Below are positions 7,985-41,938 of a DNA stretch of 59,245 bases, in pieces. Numbering within the stretch: position 1 is the first letter of the stretch; the number at the start of each line of letters is the position of its first letter. A program made the translations under genes and the position numbers. The notes beneath the pieces are model-generated. The model saw only the letters and a program-made list of their open reading frames with translations. It ran no database searches and was not told where the DNA came from. The DNA is from an uncultured Archangium sp. (GTDB taxonomy: Bacteria > Myxococcota > Myxococcia > Myxococcales > Myxococcaceae), in contig CAIVGN010000231.1 in the NCBI GenBank assembly GCA_903905455.1, positions 1 to 59,245 of the forward strand, written 5' to 3'.

Positions 7985-9462
<1,478 letters not shown>

Positions 9463-9463
<1 letters not shown>

Positions 9464-12621: not shown

Positions 12622-12642
12622 GACGGTTCCGTTCCCTTGCTT

Positions 12643-13371: not shown

Positions 13372-13505
13372 GGTGTCGACCTCTTGGAGGCTGCGGCACG
13401 TACCGAATCCGCACTTGTGGAACAACTTTTATTTCCGCGCGCCCACCGCCTCTCCACCGAGCGGGAGCGCTCCTTCTGCGTGGACTTACTTTCGCTGCGG
13501 CCCGC
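13372..13505 (-). promoter_or_regulatory. Leader/possible promoter region between oxidase and ACIII genes
   Basis: This 134-base gap is the only sizeable break inside the 14-kb respiratory cluster. It contains an AT-rich patch (AAATAAAAG on the minus strand, ~13428-13436), unusual at this GC content, next to a small palindrome TTGTGGAACAA (13415-13425). A 10-base palindrome GGAGCGCTCC lies near 13466-13475. I see no convincing -35/-10 pair and no U-tract hairpin. An internal promoter for actA-F is plausible but unproven. Confidence 0.35.
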
Positions 13506-14108: not shown

Positions 14109-14277
14109 CGGTCTTCTGCGGAGCAGCCTCCGCGGCGCGGGCAGAGATGATGACCCACGCCAGGATGCCGCCAAGCATCGCCAGCGGCAGCAGCGAGATG
14201 ATGATCGACATCACGATGTACGAGCCCCGAGCCGGGTCGGGACCACCACCACACACGGCGCAAGCGAGCGTGAGCAT
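14086..14277 (-). CDS. Small CxxC membrane protein of oxidase locus
   Basis: A 63-residue protein. It opens MLTLACAVCGGG, then has one or two closely spaced hydrophobic helices (IVMSIIISLLPLAMLGGILAWVII) and a polar tail. The CAVC pair at the membrane face could bind metal. Similar short CPxCxG-type proteins accompany oxidase or copper genes in other bacteria, but the family is not named here. Its ATG overlaps the stop of the upstream subunit-III-like gene by 1 base and its 3' end overlaps the SCO-like gene by 23 bases. Confidence 0.72.
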   Translation of the reverse strand: MLTLACAVCGGGPDPARGSYIVMSIIISLLPLAMLGGILAWVIISARAAEAAPQKTDDGGLPS

Positions 14278-14876
14278 CAGAAGTACACCCGGGCGTAGAT
14301 GACGGGCCACATCAGGACGACGAAGTACCAGAAGGTCTGGGTGCCGAAGAAGAAGCCGGGGCTCAGCTTGCCGCGGGCCATCTGCAGCCACGCCCAGCCC
14401 AGCGCGAGCAGCGCTCCTACGGCGTGCAGCGCGTGCCCACCGACGATCAAATAGAAGAAGCTGCCCAGCGGGCTGGAGGTCAGCGTCAGGCCCGAGGCCA
14501 GCAGCGCCGTCCATTCCACGCCCTGCAGCGCGACGAAGCTGGCGCCCAGCGCCCAGGCGGCGAGCGTCACCCAGTGCGCCACCGGCGACTTCTTCTGGAA
14601 CAGGCGCTGGCTGACGAAGAGCACCACGCCGCTGAGCAGCAGCAGCACGGTGTTGAGCGCCGTGGCCTCGGCGGGCAGCCGCGGTTGGCCCGGCATCGGC
14701 CACATGCCCGGCAGCGCGCCGGCCTTGCTGATGGTGAAGGCGGAGATCATGCCCGAGAAGAGCATCACCTCGGCGACCACGAAGAACAGCGTGCCCAACA
14801 CGGCGCTCGGAACCACCTGGCGCCGCGTGCGCGGCGTCGGGGCGGGGCTGCGAGCCGGGTCGAGGGTGGCGTCCAT
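14277..14876 (-). CDS. Second heme-copper oxidase subunit III-like protein
   Basis: A 199-residue membrane protein with five helices. It resembles cytochrome c oxidase subunit III: 'LGTLFFVVAEVMLFSGMISAF', a Glu-containing helix like that of ctaE, and 'GGHALHAVGALLALGWAW' with the typical His pair before the last helix. It is a paralogue of the subunit III encoded two genes upstream at 15332-15913, so the operon has two. It may form part of the same oxidase or act in contact with ACIII. Its start is 2 bases after the subunit IV stop. Confidence 0.82.
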   Translation of the reverse strand: MDATLDPARSPAPTPRTRRQVVPSAVLGTLFFVVAEVMLFSGMISAFTISKAGALPGMWPMPGQPRLPAEATALNTVLLLLSGVVLFVSQRLFQKKSPVAHWVTLAAWALGASFVALQGVEWTALLASGLTLTSSPLGSFFYLIVGGHALHAVGALLALGWAWLQMARGKLSPGFFFGTQTFWYFVVLMWPVIYARVYF

Positions 14877-14878
14877 GG

Positions 14879-15325
14879 TCAGTGGGGAGCGGCCGCGGGC
14901 GCTTCGGCCGGGGCCTCGCCGTGGTGCTCGCCGTGGCCGGCCGCTTCGTTGGCCTTGAGGCCCTTCTCGACGGCCTCGATGGCGGCGGTGTTGGTCCACC
15001 GCTGGCCCTCGTGCTTCATCACGTCGGGGGCCACGCCCGCGACGAAGACCAGCATGATCGCCAGCATCGTGAGCAGCAGCAGGCCGATGTACTTCTTCTC
15101 CACCGTGAGGTGCATGAAGTACTTGATGACCAGGAAGGCCTTCACGAAGGCGATGCCGAACGCGGTGACCATGGTGAGCACCGGGTGGCCGAGCATCGGG
15201 CCGACGACGGAGACGACCAGCAGGGCCAGCAAGATGCCCCAGATCTTCACGTAGTTCGTTTCGTGGCCACCGTGGGCGTCGTGGGCGGCGCCCGGGGCGG
15301 GCGCGGGAGTCGAGGTGTCAGACAT
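14879..15325 (-). CDS. ctaF: Cytochrome c oxidase subunit IV
   Basis: A 148-residue protein of the prokaryotic oxidase subunit IV family. Three transmembrane helices occupy about residues 25-110 and include 'VKAFLVIKYFMHL', a diagnostic segment of the family. The N-terminus (APGAAHDAHGGHE) and C-terminus (AAGHGEHHGEAP) are rich in His and Ala, an unusual pair of potential metal-binding tails also seen in the neighbouring subunit I. It lies 6 bases downstream of subunit III. Confidence 0.9.
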   Translation of the reverse strand: MSDTSTPAPAPGAAHDAHGGHETNYVKIWGILLALLVVSVVGPMLGHPVLTMVTAFGIAFVKAFLVIKYFMHLTVEKKYIGLLLLTMLAIMLVFVAGVAPDVMKHEGQRWTNTAAIEAVEKGLKANEAAGHGEHHGEAPAEAPAAAPH

Positions 15326-15331
15326 GGCGGC

Positions 15332-15913
15332 TCACTTGGCGATGTAGAGAAGCGGGAAGAGGAAGATCCACACGATGTCGACGAAGTGCCAGTACAGGCC
15401 GACGGCCTCGACGCGCTGCAGGTCGATGCCCTTCTTCGCGTCGCTGGCGATGATCGCCATGATGATCAGGCCGACGATCACGTGCACGCCGTGGATGCCG
15501 GCGGCCGTGTAATAGAACGACCAGAAGGTGTGCGAGGTCAGCGTGAAGCCGTGGTGGATCTCGTTGGTCCACTCGATGGACTTCACCGTCAGGAACATCA
15601 ACCCGCCGAGGATGGTCAGGTAGAGGAACTTCGCCGCCTTCTTGCCGTCCTTGTGCTCGGCGGCCTGGTGCGCGAGCACCGCCATCAGCGACGAGGTCAG
15701 CAGGATGAAGGTGTTCAGCGCCCCCGCCCAGGTGTTGGTGTGCTCGGCCTGGCTCGCCCACTCGGGGTGACCGATGCGGTGCATGACGTAGCTGCCAAGC
15801 ACGCCGCCGAAGATGACGATTTCAGACGCGATGAGCCACCACACGGCCAACTTGCCGGTGGAGATGCCCGTGGCACTGCGCGTCGTCGCGATGGGTCTCG
15901 GGAAGGAGGACAT
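15332..15913 (-). CDS. ctaE: Cytochrome c oxidase subunit III
   Basis: A 193-residue five-helix subunit III. Diagnostic segments are 'KLAVWWLIASEIVIFGG' (helix with conserved Glu), 'FTLTSHTFWSFYYTAAGIHG' and the end 'GLYWHFVDIVWIFLFPLLYI', the classical WHFVDxVW signature. It supports proton uptake and stability of subunit I. It lies 3 bases after the stop of ctaD. Confidence 0.95.
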   Translation of the reverse strand: MSSFPRPIATTRSATGISTGKLAVWWLIASEIVIFGGVLGSYVMHRIGHPEWASQAEHTNTWAGALNTFILLTSSLMAVLAHQAAEHKDGKKAAKFLYLTILGGLMFLTVKSIEWTNEIHHGFTLTSHTFWSFYYTAAGIHGVHVIVGLIIMAIIASDAKKGIDLQRVEAVGLYWHFVDIVWIFLFPLLYIAK

Positions 15914-15916
15914 GGG

Positions 15917-17656
15917 TCAGCTCGGGGAGTTCTGAGGCCAGTGATCGTCCTGGCGGTCGGGGTGGCTGTACTCGTACGGGCCGCGGTACACGGTGGGCAG
16001 CCCCTCGGGGAAGTTGCCGTGCGGCGGGGGCGACGGCGCCTGCCACTCCAGCGTGTTCGCCTTCCACGGGTTGGCCTCGGCCTTGGGGCCCTTGAAGGCG
16101 CTGTAGAAGTAGTTCACCAGGAACACGACCTGGAACGCGAGCAGCACCACCAGCGACAGCGTGGCCAGCACCCGCAGGTCCTGCATGCCCGGCTTCATCA
16201 GGTCGGGGAAGTGCGTGTAGTCGTAGATGCGGCGGTGATCACCGCGCGCCCCGAGGAGGAAGAGGGGAATGAAGATGAAGTTGAAGGGGATGATCGTCCC
16301 CCAGAAGTGCACCTTGCCCCAGGCCTCGTTCATGTACTTCCCGAACATCTTGGGGAACCAGTAGGTCACCGCCGCGAACACCGCGATGAAGGCGATGGGG
16401 AAGAACGTGTAGTGGAAGTGCGCGATCACGAAGTACGTGTCGTGGAAGTAGATGTCCGCGCCCGACGAGCCGAGGAAGATGCCGGTCACGCCGCCGAGCA
16501 GGAACTCGCCGATGAAGGCCAGCGCCCAGAGCATCGGGGTGGTGAGCCGGATCGAGCCGCCGAACAGCGTGGCGATGTACACGAACACCATCTCGGCCAC
16601 GGGGATGGAGATGAGGAGCGTGGTCACCGAGAAGATGTTGGCCATGCGCGGGTCGATGCCGGCGATGAACTGGTGGTGGGCCCAGACGAAGAAGCTCAAG
16701 GCCCCCGTGCCGACCGCCGTGTAGATGACCGTCTTGTACGCGAAGAGCTTCTTGCGGCTGAAGGTGGTGATCACCTCGGCCACGATGCCCATCGCGGGCA
16801 ACAGCACCACGTAGACCTCGGGGTGACCGAAGAACCAGAAGAGGTGCTGCCACAGCACCGGGTCTCCGCCCTTCTTGGGGTCGAAGAAGCCGGTGCCCAC
16901 CGTCTGGTCGAACAGCAGCATGATCGCGCCGGCCACCAGCGGGCCGACCGAGGCCATGAAGAGGATCGACGCGATGACGATCATCCAGATCACGATGGGC
17001 ACGTCGAACATCTTCATGCCCGGCGCGCGGCTGTTCATCAGGGTGGTGACGAAGTTGATGCCGCCCAGGAGGAACGCGGCGAACTCGAGGGCCACGGCCA
17101 CCAGCCACATGGGCGCGCCCAGCGGCGTGAGGTTGTACTCCGGCTTCGCCGAGAGCGGGGGGTAGCTGGTCCACGCGCCGCCGAAGGCGCCGCCCTGCAC
17201 GAAGAACGAGGCGATCAGCACCACGATCGACAGGAGGAACAACTGGTAGCTCAGGCGGTTGAGCCGCGGGAACACCATGTCGTCCGCGCCGATCATCAGG
17301 GGGATGAGGTAGTTGCCCAGCGCGGCGATCAACACCGGCATCGCCACCCAGAAGATCATCACCGAACCGTGCGTGGTGACCAGCGCGTTGTAGTCCGTGG
17401 CGGTGACGCGGCCGTAGCCCGGCACGCTCATGCCCGGGAAGGCGATCTGCATGCGGAAGGCGTACACGGCGAAGCCGCCGATGAGCGCCATGAACATGCC
17501 GGTGAACAGGTACTGGAAGCCGATGATCTTGTGATCCGTCGACCAGAAGTACTTGAGGAAGAAGTTCTGCTCGGCGTGGCCGTGGGCGTGGCCGTCGTGG
17601 CCGTGCCCGTCGTCGTGGCTGTGGCCCGAGGCTTCGGGTGTCGCGGTGCTGCTCAT
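15917..17656 (-). CDS. ctaD: Cytochrome c oxidase subunit I, aa3 (type A) family
   Basis: A 579-residue catalytic subunit with about twelve transmembrane helices. The start at 17656 overlaps the ctaC stop; the longer frame upstream was rejected. CuB/heme a3 site motifs are WFFGHPEVYVVLLPAMG (GHPEVY, type A family, with the cross-linked Tyr), 'WAHHQF' and 'VIAHFHYTF'. The low-spin heme His lies in 'VTTHGSVMIFW'. The N-terminus is His/Gly/Asp-rich (HSHDDGHGHDGHAHGH), a possible metal-binding tail. The enzyme reduces O2 and pumps protons. Confidence 0.97.
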   Translation of the reverse strand: MSSTATPEASGHSHDDGHGHDGHAHGHAEQNFFLKYFWSTDHKIIGFQYLFTGMFMALIGGFAVYAFRMQIAFPGMSVPGYGRVTATDYNALVTTHGSVMIFWVAMPVLIAALGNYLIPLMIGADDMVFPRLNRLSYQLFLLSIVVLIASFFVQGGAFGGAWTSYPPLSAKPEYNLTPLGAPMWLVAVALEFAAFLLGGINFVTTLMNSRAPGMKMFDVPIVIWMIVIASILFMASVGPLVAGAIMLLFDQTVGTGFFDPKKGGDPVLWQHLFWFFGHPEVYVVLLPAMGIVAEVITTFSRKKLFAYKTVIYTAVGTGALSFFVWAHHQFIAGIDPRMANIFSVTTLLISIPVAEMVFVYIATLFGGSIRLTTPMLWALAFIGEFLLGGVTGIFLGSSGADIYFHDTYFVIAHFHYTFFPIAFIAVFAAVTYWFPKMFGKYMNEAWGKVHFWGTIIPFNFIFIPLFLLGARGDHRRIYDYTHFPDLMKPGMQDLRVLATLSLVVLLAFQVVFLVNYFYSAFKGPKAEANPWKANTLEWQAPSPPPHGNFPEGLPTVYRGPYEYSHPDRQDDHWPQNSPS

Positions 17657-18366
17657 GGCATGCCTCCGGTCTGCGTAGTCGGAGTCGTCAAGGCCGCGGT
17701 GGCCGGCGTCTGCGAGAGCAGCCACGCCGCGTGGTCTTCAGGGGACTCGATGATGATGCGCGCCGGCATGATCGCGTGGCCGATGCCGCAGATCTCCGTG
17801 CACTGGATGTCGTAGGCGCCGGCCTGCGTGGTCTTGAACCAACCGCGGATGGTGCGCCCGGGGATGACGTCCTGCTTCAGGCGGAAGACGGGCACCGAGA
17901 AGCTGTGGAGCACGTCACGGCTCTGCAACTCGAAGTGGATGGTCTTGCCCTTCTCCACGTGGAGCTCGTCGACCAGGCGGATGTCGTCGGCCGTGTCCAG
18001 CTGGCCGTCGGCGCCGGGGTGGATGAAGGTCCACGCCCACTGCTGGGCGATGACGCGCACCGTCTCGTCGGCCTGGGGCATGGTCTGCTTGACCTCCTGC
18101 CACACGCTGATCGCCGAGAAGATGATCCACACGTCGAAGGCGAGGGTCAGGTAGTGCGGCACCGCCACCCAGCGCTTCTCCTTGGGGTCTTCGCCGGCCA
18201 CGTACTGGGCGCGCACGCCGTCCCGGGCCGCGTAGCGGATGATCAGGTAGAAGAAGACCGCTTCGGCGAGCAGGAACCAGAAGCCCACGATGGCGGTGAT
18301 GACCCAGATCAGGTGATCGATGTCACCCGAGAAGGTCGCGACTGAATCGACGTACTTGCTGATCAT
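17653..18366 (-). CDS. ctaC: Cytochrome c oxidase subunit II with CuA site
   Basis: A 237-residue subunit II with two N-terminal helices (about 18-45 and 70-92) and a periplasmic cupredoxin domain. The CuA motif is complete: CTEICGIGHAIM (CxxxCxxxHxxM), with the upstream His in 'DVLHSFSVPVF'. 'QQWAWTF' is the aromatic electron-entry patch. No cytochrome c domain is fused at the C-terminus, so this is an aa3 rather than caa3 enzyme, and the separate cytochrome c genes must deliver electrons. No signal peptide is evident. Confidence 0.95.
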   Translation of the reverse strand: MISKYVDSVATFSGDIDHLIWVITAIVGFWFLLAEAVFFYLIIRYAARDGVRAQYVAGEDPKEKRWVAVPHYLTLAFDVWIIFSAISVWQEVKQTMPQADETVRVIAQQWAWTFIHPGADGQLDTADDIRLVDELHVEKGKTIHFELQSRDVLHSFSVPVFRLKQDVIPGRTIRGWFKTTQAGAYDIQCTEICGIGHAIMPARIIIESPEDHAAWLLSQTPATAALTTPTTQTGGMP

Positions 18367-25641: not shown

Positions 25642-28600
25642 TCAGTCCAGCAGCTTCGGGTTGCTCGCGAGGTGACCGGCCAATGCCATCAGCAACTGGG
25701 CCTCATGGGCGTCAGTGATGTGGTCGAGCTCGCGGTTGACCAGGCCGAAGACGGCGACGAGCAGCACCCACAGCCGCTCGGGGCGGGAACTGAGCTCGGT
25801 CAAGGCGCGCGCGATGTCGGGGTGCTCGGGGTCGAGGAAGACCAGCTTGCGCTTCGCCTCGTAGCGCAGGGGCGTGGCGCCGCCCTCGCGGGCGAGGCGC
25901 ACGTCCTCGAGCTCGTCGGGGGTGAGCGGCCCGAGGGCCCCGGCGCGCAGCAGCCGCAATTCCTTGCGCAGCGCCTTCAGGCCCGCGAGCAGCGCGGTGC
26001 CTTCGGGCGGGTCGGCCTCGCGCACCGCCTGCTGCCATTCCGCGGGGGCGGTGACGCGCCACACGCGGCCCTTGCCGAGCAGCGCCTCGAGCCCCGTCAG
26101 CCAGGGCGCCGAGAAGGAAGACGCCGAGAGCACGCACGCCGTGACGGGCGAGGAGGGGCCCGCGCCGCGCTCGAAGACGGCGAGGCGGGCGCCGCTGGAG
26201 ACCTCGGCGGCCAGGGCGCGCAGCGTGACCTTCTCGTCCTCCACGGTGACGAAGAACGGCGCGTCGGCGAGCGCCTGGGCCGCGCCGCTCGAGCGCTGCA
26301 AGTCGGCGAGGGACTCCACGCGCGAGTGCGCGAGGAACTCGAGGGCCCAGCTGGCGGCCTGCTCGCGCTCGCGGGGGCCGAGGTCCTTCGCGGCTTCAGC
26401 CAGCGCCCCGAAGAGGCGCTCGACCTGCGCGCGCACCAGGCCGAGCTGCGCGCGGGTGGGGGTGGCCTTGGTCCAGTCGGCGTCGACCGCGAGGCCGTCG
26501 ATGCCCACCACGCCCACCACGCCGGGCCAGCGCTCCTCGAGGGCGTGCAGGCAGATGCCGTCGCGGGCGAGCATCACCACGCCGGCCTCGGTGGACAGCG
26601 CGAGCTCGCCCTGCAGCGGGCCGGCGTCCACCTGCACGCGCACCAGGGCCTCGCCCTTCCACTTGAGTGATGCGAGGCGCCGCGAGGTCAGCGCGTGCTT
26701 GAGGTTCTCGGCGCGCCGGAGGTCCTGGGTCACGTCGTCGAAGCGCAGCTCGAGCATCGCGAGGGTGGCGCGGGTCACGGGCGAGTCGAGGAGCACGGTG
26801 GGCTCGGGGGGTGTGCCGTCCCCGGGCGTGGCGAGGGACACCCTGCCCTGCCGCGCGGCGAGCTGGAGCACCTCGCCCACGGTCACCGGCGTCCCGGCGA
26901 GCGACTCGAAGAGGGGCAGCGCGGGGAGCGCCGCGGCGAGGGGGCCGGCCTGGCCTGCGCGCCACCGCACGGCCGCGCGGGCCCAGTCGGGGAAGGTCGC
27001 GTCGCGGGACTGCAGGCGGCGCAGCAGCAGCTTCTCCAGGGCGGCCTCGGTGGCGCTGATCAGCGCCTTGAAGTGTTGATCTCGCTTGGCCTGGGTGAAG
27101 GCGTCGTCGGGGGTGAGCAGCGTCGAGGAGACGCGCGCGGTGCCGCCCACGGGATGTGGCCCGCTCCAGCGCTCGAGGAGCATGCGCTCGTGGAGCACCT
27201 CGATGACCAGCAGGCCGTCGGGCACGTCACCCAGGGCCACCTCGCCCTCGAGGGCCACGCGGTGCACCGGCTCGCGCCACGCGCTCTGGATCGGCGCCGC
27301 GACGACGTCGAAGCGCGGCCGCGCGCGGATGGAGTCGGCCACGCGCAGCGCCTCCGTGACGTCGTCGAAGGCGAAGCCCGCCTTCGTCGCCCACTCGAGC
27401 TCCCCGGCGCGCGGCCACCAGGCCTTTCGACCCGCCTCGAGGAAGGCGCCGCCGCGGCTGACGAGGGTGACCTTCCCCTCCTCGGTCTGGCGCTCGATGA
27501 GATCTTCGAGGCACAGCGACGGTTCACCGTCGTTGGTGCGCAGCAGCTTGAAGCGCAGCAGCGCGGGGTTCGGCACCGGCTCTTCCCGCGGCACCCGCTT
27601 GCTCTTCTTGCTGGGCTTCTTCTTCCCCTTCCACTTCCACGCGCGCTCCGAGGTGAGCTCGAAGGCGAACTGCACCAGCGTGGGCTCCCAGCCGGGGGGC
27701 GCCTGCCGGGGGTCGAGTTCCGCGGCGAGCCGGTCGCGCGCGGCCTTCACGGCCACCTGGACCTCGACGAAGGCCGCGTCGCGCTCCACGCCGGTGAAGC
27801 CGAGCGTCGGGGTGAGGCGCGGCGAATCGACGGCCGCGGCGAGTGGGCCCGCGAGCCCGTCCGCGAGCACGGTCAGCGGCTTCTTGCCCAGGAAGAGCTC
27901 GAGCCGCCCTGCCCCCTCGCGCGCGAGGACCACCTCGCCGGTGAGCCCGCCGGCGTCGAGGCGCTGACGCCACGGAGAGTCGAGGCGCAGGTGAACCTGC
28001 TCGACGGCGACGGCCTGTTCCCGTTGACGGAGCGCTGCAGCCTGGACCTTGAGGGATTCCCCCACGTGCTTCGCCCGCGGCCACCTGCGCAGCGCGACGT
28101 GCAGCGGCTCGGTGTCGGCGATGAGAATGGGCAGCCCATCGGGCAGCGTGCCGACCATCTTCCGGCTCACGTAGTGGAGGGCCTCGGTCGAGACCCCGTG
28201 GAGATCGCGGGTGACGCCGTCGGTGCAGGGGAAGACGGTGGCGCGCCGCAGGGCCTCGGCCTCGGCCGAAGGCAGCGAGCCATCGACGCCGCGACCCAGG
28301 GCGAGCAACACCGCGCGCGCGGCGTTCGGGTCGGGGAGCCGCGGCAACGCCTCACCCACCACCGCGCGCACCACCCGGTCGAGCGCCTGTCGCATTTCGG
28401 CCAGCTGATCAGCGGACAGCTCGCCGTCGACGCGCGGCTCGAGGCCGGGCAACTCGAGGAACACCAGCAGCGGCAAGGCGCAGGGCGGCTGCACCGTCGC
28501 GTAGAGGCGCGAGGCGACGTGCACGTGCACCGTCGCCTCGGGCGCAATGCCCTCGCGCAGCCCGGCGAGCGCGGTAAAGCCCGGCTGGCTGAGCTCGCAC

Positions 28601-31155
28601 CGCAGGGAGAGGCCCGCGGGCAGCTCGAACTTCACCACCGGGCGCGCCTCGAGCTGGCGACGGGCGGCGAGGCGCTGGAGCTCCGGGCCCGCGTCACCCA
28701 GGGCGCGCCCGAGCACCTGCACCAGGGTGGGCAGCAGCGTGAGCGACTCGAAGAGCACCAGCAGCTCGCCGGGCACGGGAGGACGGGCCTCGGTGGGCGA
28801 GGAGATGAGCACCCGGGGGTGCGCCTTGAGCTCGAGCAGCGACACCTTGCGCGCGCCGGCGTCGAAGACCTTCGCCTCGGCGACCACGCGGGTGACGTCG
28901 TCGAGGGTGTCGGGGGTGAAGCCGCGCAGCTCCTTTTCGAGGAAGGCCCTGAAGAAGAGCTCGCCCCCGGTGCGCCACGACGCCCGGGGGAGCTTCACCA
29001 GCTCGAGCACCAGCCGGCGCTGGGCGTCGCTGACCGCGGTCAACGCGCGCTGGAACGCGGCGTCGCGGGTGACGGCCGTCCACTTCTGGTTGGGCGTGAG
29101 GTCGGCGGCGTCGACGCTGGCGATGGCGTGCTGGTAGCGCGCGGTCAGCGAGGTGGTCTCGAGGCGCAGGCCCCGCTTGAGCAACGTCAGCGAGAGCGCG
29201 GTGTTGGCGGCGCGGGGAATGCCCACCTCGCCTTCGAGCCCTTCGCCGGCCACCGGCACCTTCACCACCACGTCGGGCAGCTCGGCGTACTCGCGGGGGC
29301 CGTCGAGGCGCTTGCGGATGTCGAGCTCGGCGGTGAGGCGCGCGGTGACGTCGTCGAGCCGCTTCAGGCCCAGCTTCTTGAGGATCTGGAGCTGGGCGTC
29401 GTTGAGCACCAGCACCCGCGACTCGTCGAGCAGGCCGAAGGCGAACGGGGTGCGCACGTAGCTCCAGTGGGCCTCGTCGTGGAGCGTCTGCAGCGAGACC
29501 GGCGCGCGGCCCAGGCAGGGGAAGAGCGGGGCCTCGCGCAACGCCTCGCGCAGCCCGGGGAGCCGCGTGCCGCGCTGGACCACCAGGCGCTCGAGGAGAT
29601 CGTGCGCGTGGGCCAACGCCGCAGGGGCAGGCAGCGCGGCGCACAGCGCGTCGGTCGCCGCGGTCTCGACCGCCTCGGCCACCAGGCCCAGGGCCTTCGA
29701 GGCGCCGCGGTCGTCGAAGAACATGTCGCCCAGCGGGCGGGTGATGTCGACCACCGCGCGCAGCCGCAGCGGCGCGAGCGCGTCGAGTTCGCCCGACTCG
29801 AGCAGCCGGCCCTCGTGGAGCACGCGCACGAAGGCGCCGTGGAGGCTGGCGTCGAAGCCCACCTCGCCCACGAGGCTGCGGCCGGTCACCGGGGCCCGGG
29901 CGGCCCAGTCACGGTCGGGCAGCGTGGGCACCTCGAGAGGCGCCGCGGCAACGCGCGCGCGGTTCTCGACGACGCGGGCGCGCTGCTGCACCAACTCCTT
30001 CACGTTGAAGCGCTTGCCCTCGGGGAGCAGCGTCACCAGGTCGCGGTGGTTCGCGAGGAGCACGGTGCCATCAGGGTAGGTCCCGCCCGGCAAGGGCTCG
30101 AAGGCGAAGGGCAACCAGCCGTGGCTGCGCTGCGCGGTCGCCACGGCCTCGAGGCTGACCCATTCACCCGCGGGCCCGGGCAGCACCCGCGCCCCTTGCA
30201 GCACCTTCTTCACCTCGGCTTCGAGGGACGGGTGGAGCAGCCAGGCGATGAACTCCTTGCGCCAGCGCTCGACCGTGCACAGCGCCTCGAGGCGCTCCGA
30301 GAGCAGCGTGCGCGAGACCTTGCGCAGGGCCTTCAGGGCCTCGTCGAGCAGCGCGTCGTCGTCGACCACGTCGGAGCCGGATGCGTTGCGCCGCAGCCCG
30401 TCGGCGCGGAGGTGCGCCTCCAACTGGAGCCCGGGCAGGGCCAGGGAGCGCGTGGCGACGAGCACGCCCAGCACGTCGAGTTCCAGGGTGCTGGTGGTCA
30501 GCGGCGCGTGAGGAGGGAGGAAGACGTCGAGCGTCCAGCCCTTGCCTTCCACCACGTGGCGCTCGGGCTTCGTGGGCTCGACGACGTCTTTCCCATCGAG
30601 CCTCAACGGGAGCGGGAAGCGGTGCGCGCGGGCGGCGATGGCCTTGCCTTCGGGTGAGCCGCGGAAGAAGCCCGCCACCACGCGCCAGCCGAAGCCCTTG
30701 CGCAGGTGGAAGGAGGTGGTGCGGGTGGCCCTGCGCGCGGTGACCTCGACGGTGGCCTGGGTGAGGGTCAGCGCCTTCGCCCCGCTCTCCACCTTCACGA
30801 AGACCGCGCCCGCACCGAGCGCGCCGGCGGCCCCCAGCGCGAGCAGCCGGGTGCGCTGCTCTTCGCGGGTGTTCCCCGGCTCGAGGGCCTTCTCCAGCAG
30901 GTGCGCGAGCGCGTCTTCGGCGAAGGGCGCGCCGTCGAAGCGGAGGATGACGTCGTCGGCGTCGGTCTCGACCTCGACGGACGTGGCGTCACTTTCCACG
31001 GCGGCGCGCAGCACCTCCAGCACCCAGTGCGAGGGGTCGGCGAAGCGGAAGTCGCGCAGGCGCTGCAGGGCCCGCGTGGCGTCGATGCGAATGCGGCCTT
31101 CGGTGACCTTCTCACCGCCCTCGCGCAGGGCGTGCTCCAGCTCGTGCTCGCTCAT
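25642..31155 (-). CDS. Giant sacsin-like repeat protein with degenerate GHKL N-terminus
   Basis: A 1837-residue cytoplasmic protein with no signal or membrane helices. Residues ~40-130 resemble a GHKL (Hsp90-type) ATPase: E47 lies in an N-box-like helix but the Mg-binding Asn is Ala51, FDGAPF (73-78) replaces DxGxG, and a Gly-rich loop follows at 108-117. From ~330 onward two half-modules alternate. Half A is marked by G-E-V/L at residues 441, 643, 854, 1074, 1305 and 1517 (spacing 202-231). Half B is a PLFxxxxGxPVSL-like segment near 335, 543, 763, 974, 1206, 1423 and 1633, often followed by a DDVT helix. The start overlaps the Hsp90-like gene by 4 bases. Function is unknown; a sacsin-like chaperone or sensor scaffold is inferred. 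Confidence 0.85.
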   Translation of the reverse strand: MSEHELEHALREGGEKVTEGRIRIDATRALQRLRDFRFADPSHWVLEVLRAAVESDATSVEVETDADDVILRFDGAPFAEDALAHLLEKALEPGNTREEQRTRLLALGAAGALGAGAVFVKVESGAKALTLTQATVEVTARRATRTTSFHLRKGFGWRVVAGFFRGSPEGKAIAARAHRFPLPLRLDGKDVVEPTKPERHVVEGKGWTLDVFLPPHAPLTTSTLELDVLGVLVATRSLALPGLQLEAHLRADGLRRNASGSDVVDDDALLDEALKALRKVSRTLLSERLEALCTVERWRKEFIAWLLHPSLEAEVKKVLQGARVLPGPAGEWVSLEAVATAQRSHGWLPFAFEPLPGGTYPDGTVLLANHRDLVTLLPEGKRFNVKELVQQRARVVENRARVAAAPLEVPTLPDRDWAARAPVTGRSLVGEVGFDASLHGAFVRVLHEGRLLESGELDALAPLRLRAVVDITRPLGDMFFDDRGASKALGLVAEAVETAATDALCAALPAPAALAHAHDLLERLVVQRGTRLPGLREALREAPLFPCLGRAPVSLQTLHDEAHWSYVRTPFAFGLLDESRVLVLNDAQLQILKKLGLKRLDDVTARLTAELDIRKRLDGPREYAELPDVVVKVPVAGEGLEGEVGIPRAANTALSLTLLKRGLRLETTSLTARYQHAIASVDAADLTPNQKWTAVTRDAAFQRALTAVSDAQRRLVLELVKLPRASWRTGGELFFRAFLEKELRGFTPDTLDDVTRVVAEAKVFDAGARKVSLLELKAHPRVLISSPTEARPPVPGELLVLFESLTLLPTLVQVLGRALGDAGPELQRLAARRQLEARPVVKFELPAGLSLRCELSQPGFTALAGLREGIAPEATVHVHVASRLYATVQPPCALPLLVFLELPGLEPRVDGELSADQLAEMRQALDRVVRAVVGEALPRLPDPNAARAVLLALGRGVDGSLPSAEAEALRRATVFPCTDGVTRDLHGVSTEALHYVSRKMVGTLPDGLPILIADTEPLHVALRRWPRAKHVGESLKVQAAALRQREQAVAVEQVHLRLDSPWRQRLDAGGLTGEVVLAREGAGRLELFLGKKPLTVLADGLAGPLAAAVDSPRLTPTLGFTGVERDAAFVEVQVAVKAARDRLAAELDPRQAPPGWEPTLVQFAFELTSERAWKWKGKKKPSKKSKRVPREEPVPNPALLRFKLLRTNDGEPSLCLEDLIERQTEEGKVTLVSRGGAFLEAGRKAWWPRAGELEWATKAGFAFDDVTEALRVADSIRARPRFDVVAAPIQSAWREPVHRVALEGEVALGDVPDGLLVIEVLHERMLLERWSGPHPVGGTARVSSTLLTPDDAFTQAKRDQHFKALISATEAALEKLLLRRLQSRDATFPDWARAAVRWRAGQAGPLAAALPALPLFESLAGTPVTVGEVLQLAARQGRVSLATPGDGTPPEPTVLLDSPVTRATLAMLELRFDDVTQDLRRAENLKHALTSRRLASLKWKGEALVRVQVDAGPLQGELALSTEAGVVMLARDGICLHALEERWPGVVGVVGIDGLAVDADWTKATPTRAQLGLVRAQVERLFGALAEAAKDLGPREREQAASWALEFLAHSRVESLADLQRSSGAAQALADAPFFVTVEDEKVTLRALAAEVSSGARLAVFERGAGPSSPVTACVLSASSFSAPWLTGLEALLGKGRVWRVTAPAEWQQAVREADPPEGTALLAGLKALRKELRLLRAGALGPLTPDELEDVRLAREGGATPLRYEAKRKLVFLDPEHPDIARALTELSSRPERLWVLLVAVFGLVNRELDHITDAHEAQLLMALAGHLASNPKLLD

Positions 31156-32714
31156 GACAGGGCCCACCGGGTGAGCGCCGCGTCGCGCTGGGCGTCGAGC
31201 TTCGAGGCCTGGACCAACACCAGCCGCGCCATGAGGACCGCGGCGAGCCTGGGCGCGGTGGTGAAGAGCCGCGAGGCCTTGTCGATGGCCGGGTGGCCCA
31301 GGTTGAAGCAGAGCACCGGCGGCGTGTTCCGCGCGAAGGCCGAGCCGCGCGCGAGGTGCGCCTGCATCGGCTGGGAGAGGGCCTCGAGCAGCACCCACGG
31401 GTCTTCGGCCGCCGCGGCGCGCACCCGGGAGACCTCGACCTGTTTCACTTGCGCGCCGGCGTCACGCAGGAGGGCGGTGAGCGCGCTGGCGAACTCCGGG
31501 GGCGTGGGCACGTCGGGGGGCGCGGCGTAGGTGAAGTGTTCGTCGGCAGTGACGCTGCGCTTGACCTTGAGCAGCGCGGCGACGGCGTTGCCGGTCTCGG
31601 TGCCCCACTCGAGCTCGAGCACCGGCCACTTCGCGTCGAGGAGCCGGGACACCAGCGGCGTGCGCGAGCGCGAGAGCGTGAGCAGCCCCACCTCGCGCAC
31701 GTGAGACACGAGCTCCTCGTGGCCCACCGCGCCGCCGCCGGAGAGGCGGTACACGAGCTGCTTCGGCTTGAGGCGGGTGCGCGCGAAGTGAAACAGCGTC
31801 TCGAACGCGCGGGCGCCGTCCTTGTGGGTGGCGGCGGCGGTGAGCTCCCCGGGTAATTGCGGGAGCAGCTTCTCGTCGACGAGCGCCTGCGCGAGGTCGA
31901 TGGCGCGAGAGAAGTGACGATCGCGGCGCACGTTGTCGCGAGTCAGCGTGTGCTCGAGGTAGCGGCTGACGATCTTCATCGCCACCCCGGGAATGAGGGG
32001 CTCGGTGGTCTCGAGCAGCGTGAGGCCCCGGTTGTAGAGGCCGGTGATCGCCGGCTCGACGCGGGAGGGGCCGGCGATGATGTGGGTGCCGTCTTCGACG
32101 TGCTCGACCTGGAACGGTGCGTCGACGGACAGGGGCTCGCGCACGGGCGTGGGCTCGGGCGGCGCGCTCCCGTTGGCGCTGCCCGCGGTGAAGACCACGT
32201 CGACGTCGGAGTGGCGACACCAGCGCGAGAGCGAGGCCCGCGAGCGGCTGACGAACTCGTCGTACTCGGCGGGGGTCACCTTCTTGTGGAGCGTGACGCG
32301 CGTGCCTTCCAGGGGCTCGTCGAGGCGCAGCAGTTCCCACGTGGTGTCGGCGCGGAAGAGCACCCGCCAGAACTCGCCGTCACGCCCGGTGTCCACCGTC
32401 ACCGCGTCGGGGCCGCAGGCGAAGATGCTCATGAAGCCGATGCCGAACTTGCCGATCTTCGTGAGGTCGTTCTCCTTCGTCGAGCGGAACTTGGTGACGA
32501 GGTAGTTCTCGATGACGTCGCGGTTCATGCCCTCGCCCCAGTCGGAGACGGCGATGAGCGCGAGGCCCTTCGGGGACGCGGGCCGGTACGAGAGCGACAC
32601 CTCGATGCGCGTCGAGCCGGCGTCGATGCTGTTCTGGATGAGCTCCCGGTAGAAGGCGAACGGGTCGGTGAACTGGTGGACGAGCTCTTCGACGATGCCG
32701 CCGGTGGCTTGCAC
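31152..32714 (-). CDS. Hsp90-like GHKL ATPase (HtpG-related)
   Basis: A 520-residue cytoplasmic ATPase. The Bergerat fold is intact: N-box ELIQNSIDAG (E24, N28), G1 motif DWGEGM (58-63) and lid/G2 motif GKFGIGF (88-94), plus 'EGTRVTLHKKV' (GTxVxL). It then diverges from HtpG in the middle and C-terminal domains, is shorter than HtpG (~620-640 residues) and lacks a recognisable Hsp90 dimerisation end. It starts at GTG 32714 with only a distant GAGG, and no other in-frame start preserves the fold. Coupling to the giant repeat protein suggests a two-component chaperone or conflict machine; that is inference. Confidence 0.9.
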   Translation of the reverse strand: MQATGGIVEELVHQFTDPFAFYRELIQNSIDAGSTRIEVSLSYRPASPKGLALIAVSDWGEGMNRDVIENYLVTKFRSTKENDLTKIGKFGIGFMSIFACGPDAVTVDTGRDGEFWRVLFRADTTWELLRLDEPLEGTRVTLHKKVTPAEYDEFVSRSRASLSRWCRHSDVDVVFTAGSANGSAPPEPTPVREPLSVDAPFQVEHVEDGTHIIAGPSRVEPAITGLYNRGLTLLETTEPLIPGVAMKIVSRYLEHTLTRDNVRRDRHFSRAIDLAQALVDEKLLPQLPGELTAAATHKDGARAFETLFHFARTRLKPKQLVYRLSGGGAVGHEELVSHVREVGLLTLSRSRTPLVSRLLDAKWPVLELEWGTETGNAVAALLKVKRSVTADEHFTYAAPPDVPTPPEFASALTALLRDAGAQVKQVEVSRVRAAAAEDPWVLLEALSQPMQAHLARGSAFARNTPPVLCFNLGHPAIDKASRLFTTAPRLAAVLMARLVLVQASKLDAQRDAALTRWALS

Positions 32715-35542: not shown

Positions 35543-38077
35543 ATGATCTGGCCACTCGAGGGCGCCGCTGGGCTTCGCTGGAGAAGGACCCCCGGCGGGC
35601 TGTGCCTCGAACCGTGCGAGGACCTCGACGTTCCGCCCCGCACGCTCGCCCGGCTGCGGCAGCACGTGACCCTGGACGGCCGACGCGCCGACGACTCCGG
35701 GGCGTGGGCCGGGACCGGTACGCTGCGGCTGGGGGAGACCGAGCTGGCCCGCTGGAACGGCGAGACCCTCGTCGCGGTGACGCGGCTGTGCCCCTTCGAG
35801 CTGCGCTTTCTCGCCGAGACCGGCTTTCCGCACCCGCGCGCGCACTCCGGCCTCGACGACGCGCCGCTGACCGACCTGCACACGCACTTCGCCGGCTGCG
35901 CCCGCCCGGAGACGTTGCTCGCGCTGGGCGCCGCGCACGGCGTGACCCTGGGCGCCGCGTTGCTCGACGAGGTCGGCGTGCACGGGCACCAGGGCGAGGT
36001 GGCGTTGACGAGCCTGCCCGACTCGCACCTGCACCGGGTCTCCTCCGCGCTCCGCTTGCCGGCAGATCGCCAGAGCACGTTTCGCGACATGGAGCGCGCC
36101 TACCGCCTGCGCGGCCCCTTCACCAAGTCGCTGCGCCTCTTCCCCGCGCTGCTCGACGCCGTGGCCGCCGACTACGCCGCGATGGGCGTGCGCCACGTCG
36201 AGCTCTCCATCGGCGACCTCTACCGGCAGCCATGGTTGGAGGCGGCCGTGGAAGGCGCGGCGCGCGCGCAGGGCCGCCACGGGCTGACGCTGCGCTTCCT
36301 CACCGCCATCTCCCGGCACGACGACGCGGAGTGGGACGAGGACCTGCTCGCGAGGCTGATGACGCTGGGCGGGTGCCGCGAGTTGGTGGGCGTGGACTGG
36401 ATGGGCCACGAGACCAACTCCACCCGCGCGTTCCAGGCGCGCATCTCCCGGGTGGCGCAGTGGGCGCACGCGCATCGTCCTGGCTTCGTCATTCGCGTGC
36501 ACGCGGGAGAGAACCCCGCGTTCCCCGAGAACGTGCGCCTGGCCTGCGAGGCGGTGGCCGGCTGCGACGTCACCCTGCGCATCGGGCACGCCCTCTACGG
36601 GAGCGACGAGGCGCTCGAGTTGCTGCGCGCCACCGGCGCTTACGTCGAGCTGAACCTCACCTCGAACTTCACGCTCAACAACATCCACTCCACCGGGGAG
36701 GTGCCGCTGGCCCGCCTGCTGGACTCGGGCGTGCGCTGCGTCCTGGGCACGGACGGGCCCGGGCTCTACGGCACCACGCCGGGTGACGAGCTGCGGGCCG
36801 CCCGGCTGGCGGGGCTGACGGACGCGCAGCGGCAGGCGCTGCGCGAGGCCGAGGCGAGCTACCTGGCGAAGGATCTCGAAGTGAGCGGCCGGCAGCCCTC
36901 GCACTTCGTCGTCCCGCCAGAGGAGCCGCCGCGGTTCTACACGGCCGAGGTGGCGGCGCGCAGCGAGGCGGCCCGCGCGGCGCGCCGCTCGCAGCTGCTG
37001 TCCCGGCTCGCGGAGCTGGGGGTGGAGCTGCACACGCCGGCCGCGACGCGGGTGGTGTGCATCGCCGGCGCCTGGAAGCAGGCCTGGGCGGGCGCCTCGG
37101 AGCAGAGCCGGCGGGACATCATCGCGGTGCTGGAGACGCTGATCGCCGGGCTGCCCGACGACACGCTGCTGGTGACGGGCGGCACCTCGGCCGGCGTGGA
37201 GGGCGAGGTGCACCGCCTCGCGCTGCGGCACCGGCGACGCGTGCTGGCGACGGTGGTGGAGGCGACGGAGCCCGCTGATCTCGGCCCGGGACCGACGCAT
37301 GCCGTGCTCCTGGCGGCGACGCCGCACGAGAAGGCCCCGAGGCTGTATGGGTTGATGAAGGAGCTCGACGCGCTGTGCCTGTTCTTCGGGGGCGGCAACG
37401 TGGTGCACGACGAACTGCGCGCGGCGGCCAACCTGCGGCTGCGCTACCTCGCGTTCGAAGGCGTGCAGGGCGCCAGCGGGCGACACGCGCAGGTGGTGCC
37501 GCACCGCGCGTTTCGCTCGGCGGCCGAGGTGTTGCGGCGGCTCGATGACCGGGCGTTCTTCCGCGAGGCCTTCGCGCCGTTCTGGCACCCCGGCGTCAAC
37601 CCGACGGTGGACGTGGTGCTGCTGCGCGACGCGCAGGAGGTGCTGCTCATCCGCCGTCATGACGACGCGCCCGCGGAGCCGGGGCAGTGGGCGCTGCCGG
37701 GTGGCTTCGTGCACACCGGCGCGGTGCCCGGCGCGCCATTCCTCTTCGACCAGGAGCAACCGCTGGACACCGCGGTGCGCGAGGTGGCTGAAGAAGCGGG
37801 CCTCGACCTCGGTGCGCTGCGCGAGCAGTTCCAGTTGGTGGCGCAGGTCGAAGGCGCCGGCCGCGACGAGCGCGACAGCCCCGCGGCCTGGAGCCGGACG
37901 TGGCTCTACCGCGTGACGCTCGACGAAGCCCACGCCCGCCGCGCCATCGCCGGTGGAGACGACGCCGCCGATGCGCGCTGGTTCCCGCTCGAGGCCCTGC
38001 CCCGGCGGCTGGCCTTCGACCACGCGAAGTTGCTGCGCCTGGCCTTGGAGTCGCCGCAGGGACGGGGTCCCCGGTGA
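35543..38077 (+). CDS. Adenosine deaminase-like / SLOG / Nudix three-domain fusion
   Basis: An 844-residue cytoplasmic protein. Domain 1 (about 75-450) is an adenosine-deaminase-type amidohydrolase: HTH at 113-115, VHAGEN with H320 and E323, IGHALYG with H349, and TDGP with D404, so the zinc site and catalytic Glu are present. ADA normally has TDDP; the second Asp, a substrate contact, is Gly here. Domain 2 (about 503-657) is SLOG/LOG-like with TGGTSAGVEGEV and FFGGGNVVHDEL. Domain 3 (about 685-840) is Nudix: WALPGGF, then REVAEEAGL, with an insertion within the box. Nucleotide deamination, N-glycosidic cleavage and diphosphate hydrolysis would be joined in one chain. A GTG at 35525 is an alternative start; neither has a clear ribosome site. 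Confidence 0.87.
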   Translation: MIWPLEGAAGLRWRRTPGGLCLEPCEDLDVPPRTLARLRQHVTLDGRRADDSGAWAGTGTLRLGETELARWNGETLVAVTRLCPFELRFLAETGFPHPRAHSGLDDAPLTDLHTHFAGCARPETLLALGAAHGVTLGAALLDEVGVHGHQGEVALTSLPDSHLHRVSSALRLPADRQSTFRDMERAYRLRGPFTKSLRLFPALLDAVAADYAAMGVRHVELSIGDLYRQPWLEAAVEGAARAQGRHGLTLRFLTAISRHDDAEWDEDLLARLMTLGGCRELVGVDWMGHETNSTRAFQARISRVAQWAHAHRPGFVIRVHAGENPAFPENVRLACEAVAGCDVTLRIGHALYGSDEALELLRATGAYVELNLTSNFTLNNIHSTGEVPLARLLDSGVRCVLGTDGPGLYGTTPGDELRAARLAGLTDAQRQALREAEASYLAKDLEVSGRQPSHFVVPPEEPPRFYTAEVAARSEAARAARRSQLLSRLAELGVELHTPAATRVVCIAGAWKQAWAGASEQSRRDIIAVLETLIAGLPDDTLLVTGGTSAGVEGEVHRLALRHRRRVLATVVEATEPADLGPGPTHAVLLAATPHEKAPRLYGLMKELDALCLFFGGGNVVHDELRAAANLRLRYLAFEGVQGASGRHAQVVPHRAFRSAAEVLRRLDDRAFFREAFAPFWHPGVNPTVDVVLLRDAQEVLLIRRHDDAPAEPGQWALPGGFVHTGAVPGAPFLFDQEQPLDTAVREVAEEAGLDLGALREQFQLVAQVEGAGRDERDSPAAWSRTWLYRVTLDEAHARRAIAGGDDAADARWFPLEALPRRLAFDHAKLLRLALESPQGRGPR

Positions 38078-39236: not shown

Positions 39237-40100
39237 TCACGCGCTGCGCACGAGGACCTGCTTTCCCGCCAGCGCCCGGAGCGCGGGCTCGAGGCCGCGG
39301 GTGCAGAACAGGCGCCGCTCCCTCGCGAGCTGCAGGCCGACCAGCGGCGCTTCCTCGGCCGCCCAGGGGTCCCGGTGGGTGTTGCGCGCGACGTCGGCGG
39401 CGAGGCGTTCCAGGCTGACCGAGAGCACGCCCGAATCAGGCGTGGTGCACACCGAGCGCAGCGCCCGCACGTCGGCCGGCGCCTGCGCGTCGAGCGCGGT
39501 CACGCCGGAGACCAGGGGCCCCAGCTGCCCGCGCACCACCTCGCGCACCTGAAGGCCGTCGAGCTTCGAGAGCCCGAGGAAGGCGGTGCGCGCGCTGCCA
39601 CTGCACGCCTGGCGGATGGCGACCCCGAAGTCGTCGGGCAGCCTCGCGAGCTGGTCCTTGCCCAGGGAGATCGGCCCGCGACGCCCCTGCTCCACGATGA
39701 GCGAGTAGCGCAGCGCACAGCCCTCGAGGCGCTCGTGGGTCAACGCGAAGCGCGTCACCTCCCCGGTGGAGATGAGCCGGGCGTGGGTCTGCTGGGCCAC
39801 GGGCAACTCGAGGGCCGCGAGCGCCGCGGAGAACGCGCGGGCTTCCTTCGAGGGCCGGGTGCGGTGCGTCTTGAAGAACTCGCGGGCGACGAACTGCAGC
39901 CGGTGGAGGTTCACCAGCGAGCGCGTCGTCAGCAGCCCACCGTTGGGCGCGAGCGACACCTTGAGGGGCCGGCCGCGCGGGCCTTCGCGACCGAGCAGGT
40001 CGAGCACCGCGCGCCAGGCCAGCGCGTCGGGGAACTGGGCCCCGGGTCGCGCCACGTCGAGGAGCCTCGCGAAGAGGCCCCGCCAGGCCGCGTCGCTCAC
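39237..40100 (-). CDS. Hypothetical protein coupled to phospholipase D
   Basis: A 287-residue soluble protein with no signal or membrane helix. It begins GTG with a 4-base overlap onto the phospholipase D stop, so it is translated with it. 'RGRPLKVSLAPNGGLLTTRSLVNLHRLQF' and 'RRGPISLGKDQLARLPDDFGV' are its most distinctive segments. No family is recognised. The coupling suggests a partner or immunity-like role for the PLD-family enzyme, but nothing in the sequence proves it. Confidence 0.72.
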   Translation of the reverse strand: MSDAAWRGLFARLLDVARPGAQFPDALAWRAVLDLLGREGPRGRPLKVSLAPNGGLLTTRSLVNLHRLQFVAREFFKTHRTRPSKEARAFSAALAALELPVAQQTHARLISTGEVTRFALTHERLEGCALRYSLIVEQGRRGPISLGKDQLARLPDDFGVAIRQACSGSARTAFLGLSKLDGLQVREVVRGQLGPLVSGVTALDAQAPADVRALRSVCTTPDSGVLSVSLERLAADVARNTHRDPWAAEEAPLVGLQLARERRLFCTRGLEPALRALAGKQVLVRSA

Positions 40101-41938
40101 CCCTCGTGCCGCAGCGGCTTGAACTGGGGCACGTTGTTGCGCACCACGCCGCCCCAGAGGTTGCTCTTCTTGCGGTAGGTCTCGAGCAGGTCGGCCGGGA
40201 GGTGGTTCTCGGGCCCGAAGACGGTGATCGGCTGGCCGTCCTTGAGCACCGCCTTGCCCGCGGCGTCGCGCTGGATGGTGTACTCGATGAAGCCGTTGGC
40301 CGGGTCGGCGCGGTCGTGCTCGAAGGCCTTGGTGAGGTCGGCCGCGAGCTCCTTGGACTTGACCACCGCGCCCACTTCGCCGTTCACGTAGCCCGAGAGC
40401 AGGTCGAGGTTGTAGGTGCTGACCAGGGTCTCGTCGTCGTCGACGATGGCGCTCTTGGTGTGGAACTTCCGGTCACCGGTGGCGACGTAGATGTGCGCGT
40501 TGGGGCACCTGGCGAGGATCATCTTCCAGTCGTCGAGGAAGAAGGCCTGGGTCACGTCGCTGTCGGTGGAGAGCGGGCTGTTGGTGATGATGTCGATCTG
40601 CACGCCCCGCTCGGCGGCGCGCTGGAGCCCGTTGACCATGTCCTGGGTGAGGACCACGTAGGGGTTCTCGATGACGATGCGCTTGGTGGCGCCTTCGACG
40701 AGGGCCGCAAGGGCGGGGGCCATGTTGTTCACCCGCTGGCCCGAGGCCGCGGAGGTCTGGTCGATGATCTTCGCCTCGGTCTGGTGGATCATCGAGGCGC
40801 CGGCGTCGTAGTGCGCGCGGCTGCCGCGGGCCTCGAGGTGCGTGACCAACTGCGTGGCCTGGGCGGTGAGGAACTCGAGGTCACCCTTGCTGGGCTCGCG
40901 GCGCTGCGCTTCGGGGAGATCCTGCTGCACCTGGGCCAGCGACTGCTGCACCAGCTCCGAGGCCAGCTTCGCCTGCCCGGCCTTGTCGGCGCGCAACGCG
41001 GTCTTCTGCTCGGTGCTCAGCGGGGGCGCCTTGAGCCAGTTCTCCATCATCTCGTAGGCGCCGAGGAGCTGGATGTCCTTCTTGTCCCAGTTGCCGAGCA
41101 GGTCCTTGCTCACGGCGTGCGAGGCGCCGCCGTTCTGCAGCTCGGCTTCGAAGGCGGCCTTGAGGCCCCCGGCCGTGGGCGCGCCGTCCAGCAGCACGTC
41201 CATGTCGCGCCAGGCACCCTTCAGGTCCTTGGGGTTGGCGTAGTAGTCCTGCGCGACGTTGCGGCCGCCGGTGACGCCGATGCGCCCGTCGGCCACGAGG
41301 ATCTTGTCGTGGTTCGAGGCGAGCACCGAGTAGTCGCCCTTGAGCGCGTCGAGGGGGCGCTCGTAGACCGGATGGTAGATGTACGCCTGGCCACCGTGGT
41401 TGACGATCTCCTGGAGGTAATCCTGGCCCTTGCCGGTGGCCTTGAAGCCGTGGGTGCCGAAGGTGTCGGCCATGGCGTCGATGGAGAGGCGCACGGGCAC
41501 GCCCTCGATCTGCTTCTTGAGCAGGCCGCCGAGGAACGCGAAGCCGTAAGGGTCCTTCTCGACGATGAAGTACGAGGAGTCGATGGAGGTCTTGGCGTTC
41601 GCGATGATGTCCATGCGCGCGTTCCACGCGTCGAGGCCGTCATCGAGGATGCGCGCCCTGGCCGGGCCCCCGGGCGCCTTGATGTTGTCGAAGGCCACCG
41701 CCACGGTGGTGCTGACCGGGGGCGGCGCGGAGGTCACGCCGGTGAGCGACGCGGTGCGCCGCGCGCCCTCGAGCGACGAGGTGGCGTCGAGGCCCTTGAC
41801 GGTACCGACCGCGCTGGGGGGCACGAAGGCCTTCGCCGCCGGCGTGGCGATGGCCGCGGGGGCAGCCGCTGCGGGCTTGGTGGTGGGCTTGGAGGACGGC
41901 GCGACGGGGACGCTGGGGGAGCCAATCTTCGCGGGCAT
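40097..41938 (-). CDS. Phospholipase D-family protein (two HKD motifs)
   Basis: A 613-residue PLD-superfamily enzyme. After an Ala/Pro/Lys-rich N-terminal 100 residues without a clear signal peptide, two catalytic halves follow. The first has SNHDKILVADGRIGVTGGRN and the second KFHTKSAIVDDDETLVSTYN (both HxKxxxxD with the downstream G/S-x-x-N). 'IENPYVVLTQDMVNGLQRA' precedes the second motif as in cardiolipin synthases. It may hydrolyse or transfer phosphatidyl groups. The start at 41938 was preferred over the long frame to 42109, which has unusual composition. A low-complexity N-terminus with both HKD motifs intact could suit an exported effector; that is speculative. Confidence 0.88.
   Translation of the reverse strand: MPAKIGSPSVPVAPSSKPTTKPAAAAPAAIATPAAKAFVPPSAVGTVKGLDATSSLEGARRTASLTGVTSAPPPVSTTVAVAFDNIKAPGGPARARILDDGLDAWNARMDIIANAKTSIDSSYFIVEKDPYGFAFLGGLLKKQIEGVPVRLSIDAMADTFGTHGFKATGKGQDYLQEIVNHGGQAYIYHPVYERPLDALKGDYSVLASNHDKILVADGRIGVTGGRNVAQDYYANPKDLKGAWRDMDVLLDGAPTAGGLKAAFEAELQNGGASHAVSKDLLGNWDKKDIQLLGAYEMMENWLKAPPLSTEQKTALRADKAGQAKLASELVQQSLAQVQQDLPEAQRREPSKGDLEFLTAQATQLVTHLEARGSRAHYDAGASMIHQTEAKIIDQTSAASGQRVNNMAPALAALVEGATKRIVIENPYVVLTQDMVNGLQRAAERGVQIDIITNSPLSTDSDVTQAFFLDDWKMILARCPNAHIYVATGDRKFHTKSAIVDDDETLVSTYNLDLLSGYVNGEVGAVVKSKELAADLTKAFEHDRADPANGFIEYTIQRDAAGKAVLKDGQPITVFGPENHLPADLLETYRKKSNLWGGVVRNNVPQFKPLRHEG

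Follow-up and report, generated by a model that had tools for sequence, protein, structure and literature searches.

The middle domain of Hsp90 is the part of the chaperone that faces both the client and catalysis. The asymmetric behaviour of the Hsp90 dimer and designed Hsp90 heterodimers have been discussed or cited previously (PMC11687934), and in sacsin a unit formed by an N-domain plus the middle region occurs three times, each copy being described as ATP-binding (PMC9880540), together with UBL, J and HEPN domains (PMC3710099). In the present work, we analysed a DNA stretch of 59,245 nucleotides (the window) from an uncultured Archangium sp. (GenBank assembly GCA_903905455.1, contig CAIVGN010000231.1), in which two adjoining genes of the minus strand encode a small Hsp90-like ATPase of 520 residues (31152..32714) and a giant protein of 1837 residues (25642..31155), referred to here as a pseudo-Hsp90. 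We consider that this locus probably encodes an asymmetric, Hsp90-derived client clamp formed by the small active ATPase and the ATP-dead giant. The genome comprised 8.6 Mb in 251 contigs, and its named relatives were Archangium-type and other Myxococcales metagenome-assembled genomes. Genome-by-genome sampling covered the Myxococcota and the Elusimicrobiota.

The two reading frames overlapped by 4 bp (ATGA), and the coordinates, strand, lengths and motifs given in an earlier note on this DNA, which had described an intact GHKL ATPase overlapping the giant, were all confirmed. The motifs YRELIQNSIDAG, DWGEGM and GKFGIGF were read in the small protein, which has the N-box Glu/Asn, DxGxG and GxxGxG elements of the GHKL/Bergerat group within a HATPase domain and scored 43 bits against PF13589 (cut-off 25). 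It consisted of an N-domain of Bergerat fold (32190..32693), with E24, N28, D31, D58, G60, G62, G88, G91 and G93 intact, a middle domain (31515..32132) with a candidate catalytic Arg, R259, in the motif LEHTLTRD, and a C-terminal region (31155..31514) with an N..HP motif common to the C-terminus of the giant, all of them on the minus strand. Neither the nine ATP-site residues of the N-domain (E24 to G93) nor R259 varied across the 18 ATPases compared. The identity with ten orthologues was 51-76%, the start positions of both genes were consistent with those of their orthologues, and the ratio of nonsynonymous to synonymous substitutions (dN/dS) of the ATPase was 0.19-0.26, indicating purifying selection.

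The giant begins with MSEHELEH at position 31155, a start site shared by most orthologues. When the profile of 12 orthologous giants was compared with itself, the off-diagonal matches, the best with an E-value of 6.6e-50, were offset by about 219, 440, 653 and 846 residues. Cutting the sequence in this register gave seven copies over residues 205-1720, of about 217 residues each and with a mutual identity of 12-23%, and a hidden Markov model (HMM) of the repeat found seven copies in the orthologues as well. Following a degenerate Bergerat domain (N*, residues 17-204, 30544..31107), the copies on the minus strand were R1 (residues 205-424, 29884..30543), R2 (425-641, 29233..29883), R3 (642-854, 28594..29232), R4 (855-1070, 27946..28593), R5 (1071-1298, 27262..27945), R6 (1299-1510, 26626..27261) and R7 (1511-1720, 25996..26625), and the protein ended in a C-terminal domain (1721-1837, 25645..25995). 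The latter was the best-conserved part of the protein (63% among nine orthologues), followed by N* (50%) and the repeats (32-45%), with the lowest value in R4. The dN/dS of the giant was 0.36-0.65, also consistent with purifying selection.

An AlphaFold2 model of residues 1-650, based on 17 sequences, had a mean predicted local distance difference test score (pLDDT) of 86.9. Its top Foldseek matches were Hsp90 paralogues (TRAP1, E 2.9e-13), and VIA-align placed residues 17-390 onto the N-plus-middle part of TRAP1 (Z 19.3, 358 residues, root-mean-square deviation 5.0), with R1 as an Hsp90-type middle domain. In the model, strands and helices succeed one another in R2 as they do in R1, and R3-R7, like the first two copies, were delimited by the self profile alignment. 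Given the TRAP1 match, the likeness of R1 and R2 and the profiles, each repeat represents a complete middle domain of the Hsp90 type, an assignment made directly for R1, through the model for R2 and through sequence profiles for R3-R7. The earlier note had proposed alternating half-modules repeated about six times; the repetition was borne out, while the unit and the number had to be revised to seven whole domains. Its suggestion of a structure prediction along the giant was followed for residues 1-650, where the Hsp90/TRAP1 N-plus-M fold was obtained.

These structural comparisons also bear on a nucleic-acid clamp of the MutL, MORC or topoisomerase VI type, in which the ATPase would close a ring and the repeats would bind DNA or RNA. 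MutL is among the GHKL ATPases with S5-like transducer domains, and a GHKL head with an S5-like transducer is what MutL, MORC and topoisomerase VI B have in common with this pair. The ATPase N-domain scored 2e-08 against a MutL model, and MutL appeared in the Foldseek list of the giant (E 1.4e-9, rank 50). However, the top structural matches were all Hsp90 paralogues and extended through the middle domain (residue ~390 on TRAP1 ~568), so that the fold of the giant goes on as an Hsp90 middle domain, and no conserved nuclease, DNA-binding, repair or other DNA-processing gene was seen nearby. A clamp of this type is unlikely.

The likeness to Hsp90 includes the head of the giant. Its N-terminal and middle parts aligned co-linearly with the ATPase family over 401 columns (hhalign, 98.0%, E 3e-13), which, together with the TRAP1 superposition, assigns it to the Bergerat fold and agrees with the degenerate GHKL-like N-terminus noticed before. 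The active site was mapped on an alignment of 18 ATPases and 25 pseudo-proteins. The Mg-binding Asn (N28) and the adenine-binding Asp (D58) were kept in all 18 ATPases and in none of the 25 pseudo-proteins, and the first lid glycine, Gly in every ATPase, was Arg in 22 of the pseudo-proteins. In N* of the window giant most lid glycines were substituted, and the protein does not hold the set of ATP-binding residues formed by the Asn, the Asp and the lid glycines. The pseudo-proteins had no Arg at the column of R259, a loss that is less certain because most of them present an Arg or Lys 4-5 positions earlier. Judged from these replacements, the giant is apparently ATP-dead.

A repeat HMM built from the giants alone matched the ATPase protein in relatives, at the place of its middle domain (loci L096, E 7e-12, and L099, E 1.5e-11), and the C-terminal N/D..HP motif was common to ATPase and giant (hhalign, E 5.5e-5, 66%, 38 columns) and was present in distant homologues. 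Because of this cross-match and this motif, the best reading of the giant is as an ATPase paralogue whose middle domain was multiplied, whose ends were both kept and whose head lost the ATP site. In this regard, L096 and L099, which belong to another Myxococcota family, resemble our locus in having two adjoining genes with Hsp90-like heads, the first being the one matched by the repeat HMM; they differ in that the proteins are short (765 and 619 residues in L096) and the second has a metallopeptidase-like end. Such paired short Hsp90-like genes were found at L096:8089-12259, L099, L127 and L128, the second gene ending in a HELAH motif (weak WLM match). Proteins of about 985-1155 residues at L097:4146-9124, L098:8424-13174 and L100:2030-6519 form another Hsp90-like family; its L098 member contains a transglutaminase core, and a conserved neighbour of ~500-560 residues belonging to no known family was found in all three.

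Within the family, the giant was found in 11 of 96 genomes and 7 of 26 genera, a patchy distribution. The same 11 genomes hold the close ATPase, with both genes adjacent in every one, which answers the question of co-occurrence raised in the earlier note. More distant ATPases occurred in other Myxococcota families (two each in genomes G124 and G125, one each in G164 and G185) and in the Elusimicrobiota genome G284, and all seven were directly followed by a pseudo-Hsp90 on the same strand and in the same order, of about 820-1560 residues and with fewer repeats. Altogether, ATPase and giant adjoined in constant order at all 18 loci whose flanks are visible, which come from several families of Myxococcota and from one genome of Elusimicrobiota, a count that leaves out the ATPase loci of G186 and G195, which stop at a contig end. 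The number of repeats varied between lineages from about one to seven. Pseudo-Hsp90 genes with 1-2 repeats, about ten per genome, were dispersed over two Elusimicrobiota genomes, and one ATPase was found in each of these. These dispersed genes are at L140-L149, L152-L154 and L156-L168; one of them (L165:70-1392) adjoins a gene with a protein-kinase-like start, and the others lie among unrelated genes.

The pair shares with Hsp90, HtpG and TRAP1 a Bergerat N-domain followed by an Hsp90 middle domain, with the ATP motifs and the candidate catalytic Arg in the small subunit. In contrast to them, it consists of two proteins, one active and one ATP-dead, with the middle domain in seven copies, and an Hsp90 C-terminal dimerisation domain was not recognised by sequence in either protein, which have only the short C-terminal motif in common. 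The ATPase scored 37.7 bits against the 371 bits of the HtpG/Hsp90 equivalog, and PF00183 was absent at E <= 1. An ordinary HtpG is encoded on another contig of the same genome (G000:C173), and therefore the pair is not the housekeeping Hsp90; these scores and the separate HtpG ruled out an HtpG duplicate. Replacement of HtpG by the pair was unsupported, since HtpG was present in 4 of the 11 pair-bearing family genomes and many pair-less ones were without it, several of these genomes being incomplete.

With sacsin (SACS, SIRPT repeats), the giant shares a construction from repeated Hsp90-derived parts, and the small ATPase matched the sacsin N-domain models below threshold (PF25794, 30.5 against 32.8 bits; NF047352, 45 against a cut-off of 50). 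An Elusimicrobiota homologue narrowly passed both models (NF047352, 51.4 against 50; PF25794, 37 against 32.8). Sacsin, however, repeats the N-domain with the middle region and has UBL, J and HEPN domains, whereas the giant has a single dead N-domain followed by repeats of the middle domain alone, with a separate protein as the active ATPase. The giant matched no Pfam family, and a Pfam scan of 12 orthologous giants gave no trusted match and no UBL, J or HEPN domain. Therefore, the sacsin-like label of the earlier note does not apply in a strict sense, and membership of the sacsin family was ruled out by repeat unit, domains and scores. The suspicion that the giant belongs to no described family was upheld: no entry for it was found in Pfam, NCBIfam or PADLOC. 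In the literature, no pair of a bacterial Hsp90-like ATPase and a repeat pseudo-Hsp90 was found described, subscription journals lying mostly outside the coverage.

A relation to anti-phage or conflict systems such as Tiamat (TmtA) or other GHKL defence ATPases was also considered, as a defence machine had been suggested earlier. TmtA proteins are large and have a GHKL head, in which they resemble the pair; a stretch of about 85 residues near the N-terminus is similar to the small ATPase (E 1.1e-9), and the patchy distribution in the family would fit such a role. This match was confined to the generic ATP site and did not extend to full length, the TmtA models, of 1063-1782 positions, each describe one protein, and the giant matched nothing in PADLOC and presented no effector domain. 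The neighbouring genes were ordinary, some of those downstream (e.g., an OmpH-like gene) being conserved in order within the genus, and their PADLOC matches were at superfamily level only (generic PLD and adenosine-deaminase), so that a defence island was discarded. Searches of viral, phage and plasmid sequences gave no full-length relative; a mobile element was likewise rejected, with no relatives in viral contigs and one partial generic match each in plasmids and phages. The defence reading thus finds little room, and we regard it as quite improbable.

In addition to the pair, we found a third gene not mentioned in the earlier note. Gene X (39237..40100, minus strand) encodes a protein of 287 residues, for which Pfam, NCBIfam and PADLOC gave no entry either, and lies 6.5 kb upstream of the ATPase in the window. 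Of the 16 Myxococcota genomes with the ATPase, 15 contained X, against 1 of the 179 remaining ones (Fisher p 2.6e-20, kinship among genomes ignored). X immediately preceded the ATPase gene in G007, G014, G015 and G023 and at one of the two loci in both G124 and G125, was separated from it by one AAA gene in G164, lay 3.5-6.5 kb upstream in G000 (the window genome), G002, G003 and G022, and was on a different contig in G004, G005, G010 and G185. Its predicted structure had a pLDDT of 91.7 and no clear match among solved structures (best Foldseek E 0.06; best VIA Z 5.5, to tunnelling-fold enzymes, 2dj6); since a Z of 5.5 is within the range of common arrangements, no fold was assigned.

The order coiled coil-X-AAA-ATPase-pseudo-Hsp90 was common to G164 (L093:983-10142, Myxococcota) and G284 (L151:3350-12718, Elusimicrobiota), with 30% identity between the coiled-coil proteins and 44% between the AAA proteins. 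A second pseudo-Hsp90 follows the five-gene set at L151, and in G185 a coiled-coil gene lies beside X. Both partners were searched for in the window lineage and not found, and for this reason they were treated as accessory. The stop of a PLD-domain protein (window 40097-41938) and the start of X share an overlap of 4 bp, a linkage not seen in L031.

As to the assembly of these parts, the giant could be a passive rod, a structural or tethering scaffold that the ATPase merely assembles. Seven similar domains in series, their variable number by lineage and the fast divergence of the inner repeats relative to the C-terminus would suit a rod. The giant translations, however, had no obvious signal peptide or membrane anchor, and the dead ATPase head is conserved at 50%, which counts against this explanation because a rod would not need a head. 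It is the least probable of the alternatives considered here.

The pair is best explained as a clamp or scaffold of the Hsp90 type, because its two members are conserved together, in line with the one-ATPase-plus-partner arrangement previously proposed, and the giant is unmatched by described families. In the asymmetric client clamp that we favour, the small protein, the sole member with an intact ATP site, would assemble with the giant via the N-type and C-type ends, and the small subunit, by binding and hydrolysing ATP, would close and open the clamp. The tandem middle domains may offer a long surface to a client that is large, repetitive or polymeric, X may act as a dedicated adaptor or co-chaperone, and some lineages would supplement the machine with the AAA ATPase and the coiled-coil protein.

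It must be noted that several points weigh against this reading. The N-box Glu (equivalent to E33 of Hsp90) was present in 16 of the 25 pseudo-proteins, and therefore weak nucleotide binding by them is possible. The C-terminal homology between ATPase and giant is weak, the model covered residues 1-650 of the giant, R3-R7 being assigned from sequence profiles, and the relatives are mostly metagenome-assembled genomes. No conserved neighbour pointing to a client was seen, and none recurred around the approximately ten dispersed Elusimicrobiota pseudo-genes, which gave no hint of a client either. The binding between giant and ATPase, the ATPase activity and the client are putative.

Elsewhere in the window, a predicted protein with adenosine-deaminase and NUDIX domains (35666-38077) and an apparent respiratory cluster with an iron-sulphur protein and cytochrome oxidase subunit I (7985-18366) were observed. 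No Rfam match was found in the window, and a promoter scan of the locus found none.

More tentatively, and at rather less than an even chance, the locus may represent a new kind of bacterial chaperone machine, an Hsp90 asymmetric by nature in which catalysis and client binding are on separate gene products, the number of middle domains is tuned by lineage and X is a dedicated cofactor, with some Elusimicrobiota sharing one ATPase among about ten pseudo-Hsp90s as a modular adaptor system. The analysis defines the pseudo-Hsp90 giant and X as two protein families. How the heads of Hsp90 share their work and how the middle domain handles clients are open questions, which have so far been studied in part with designed heterodimers. 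Here, evolution has apparently fixed a pair of active and dead protomers and brought the client-facing domain to up to seven copies. If the pair assembles, it would be a natural system in which to study asymmetric ATPase control and what kind of client needs seven middle domains.

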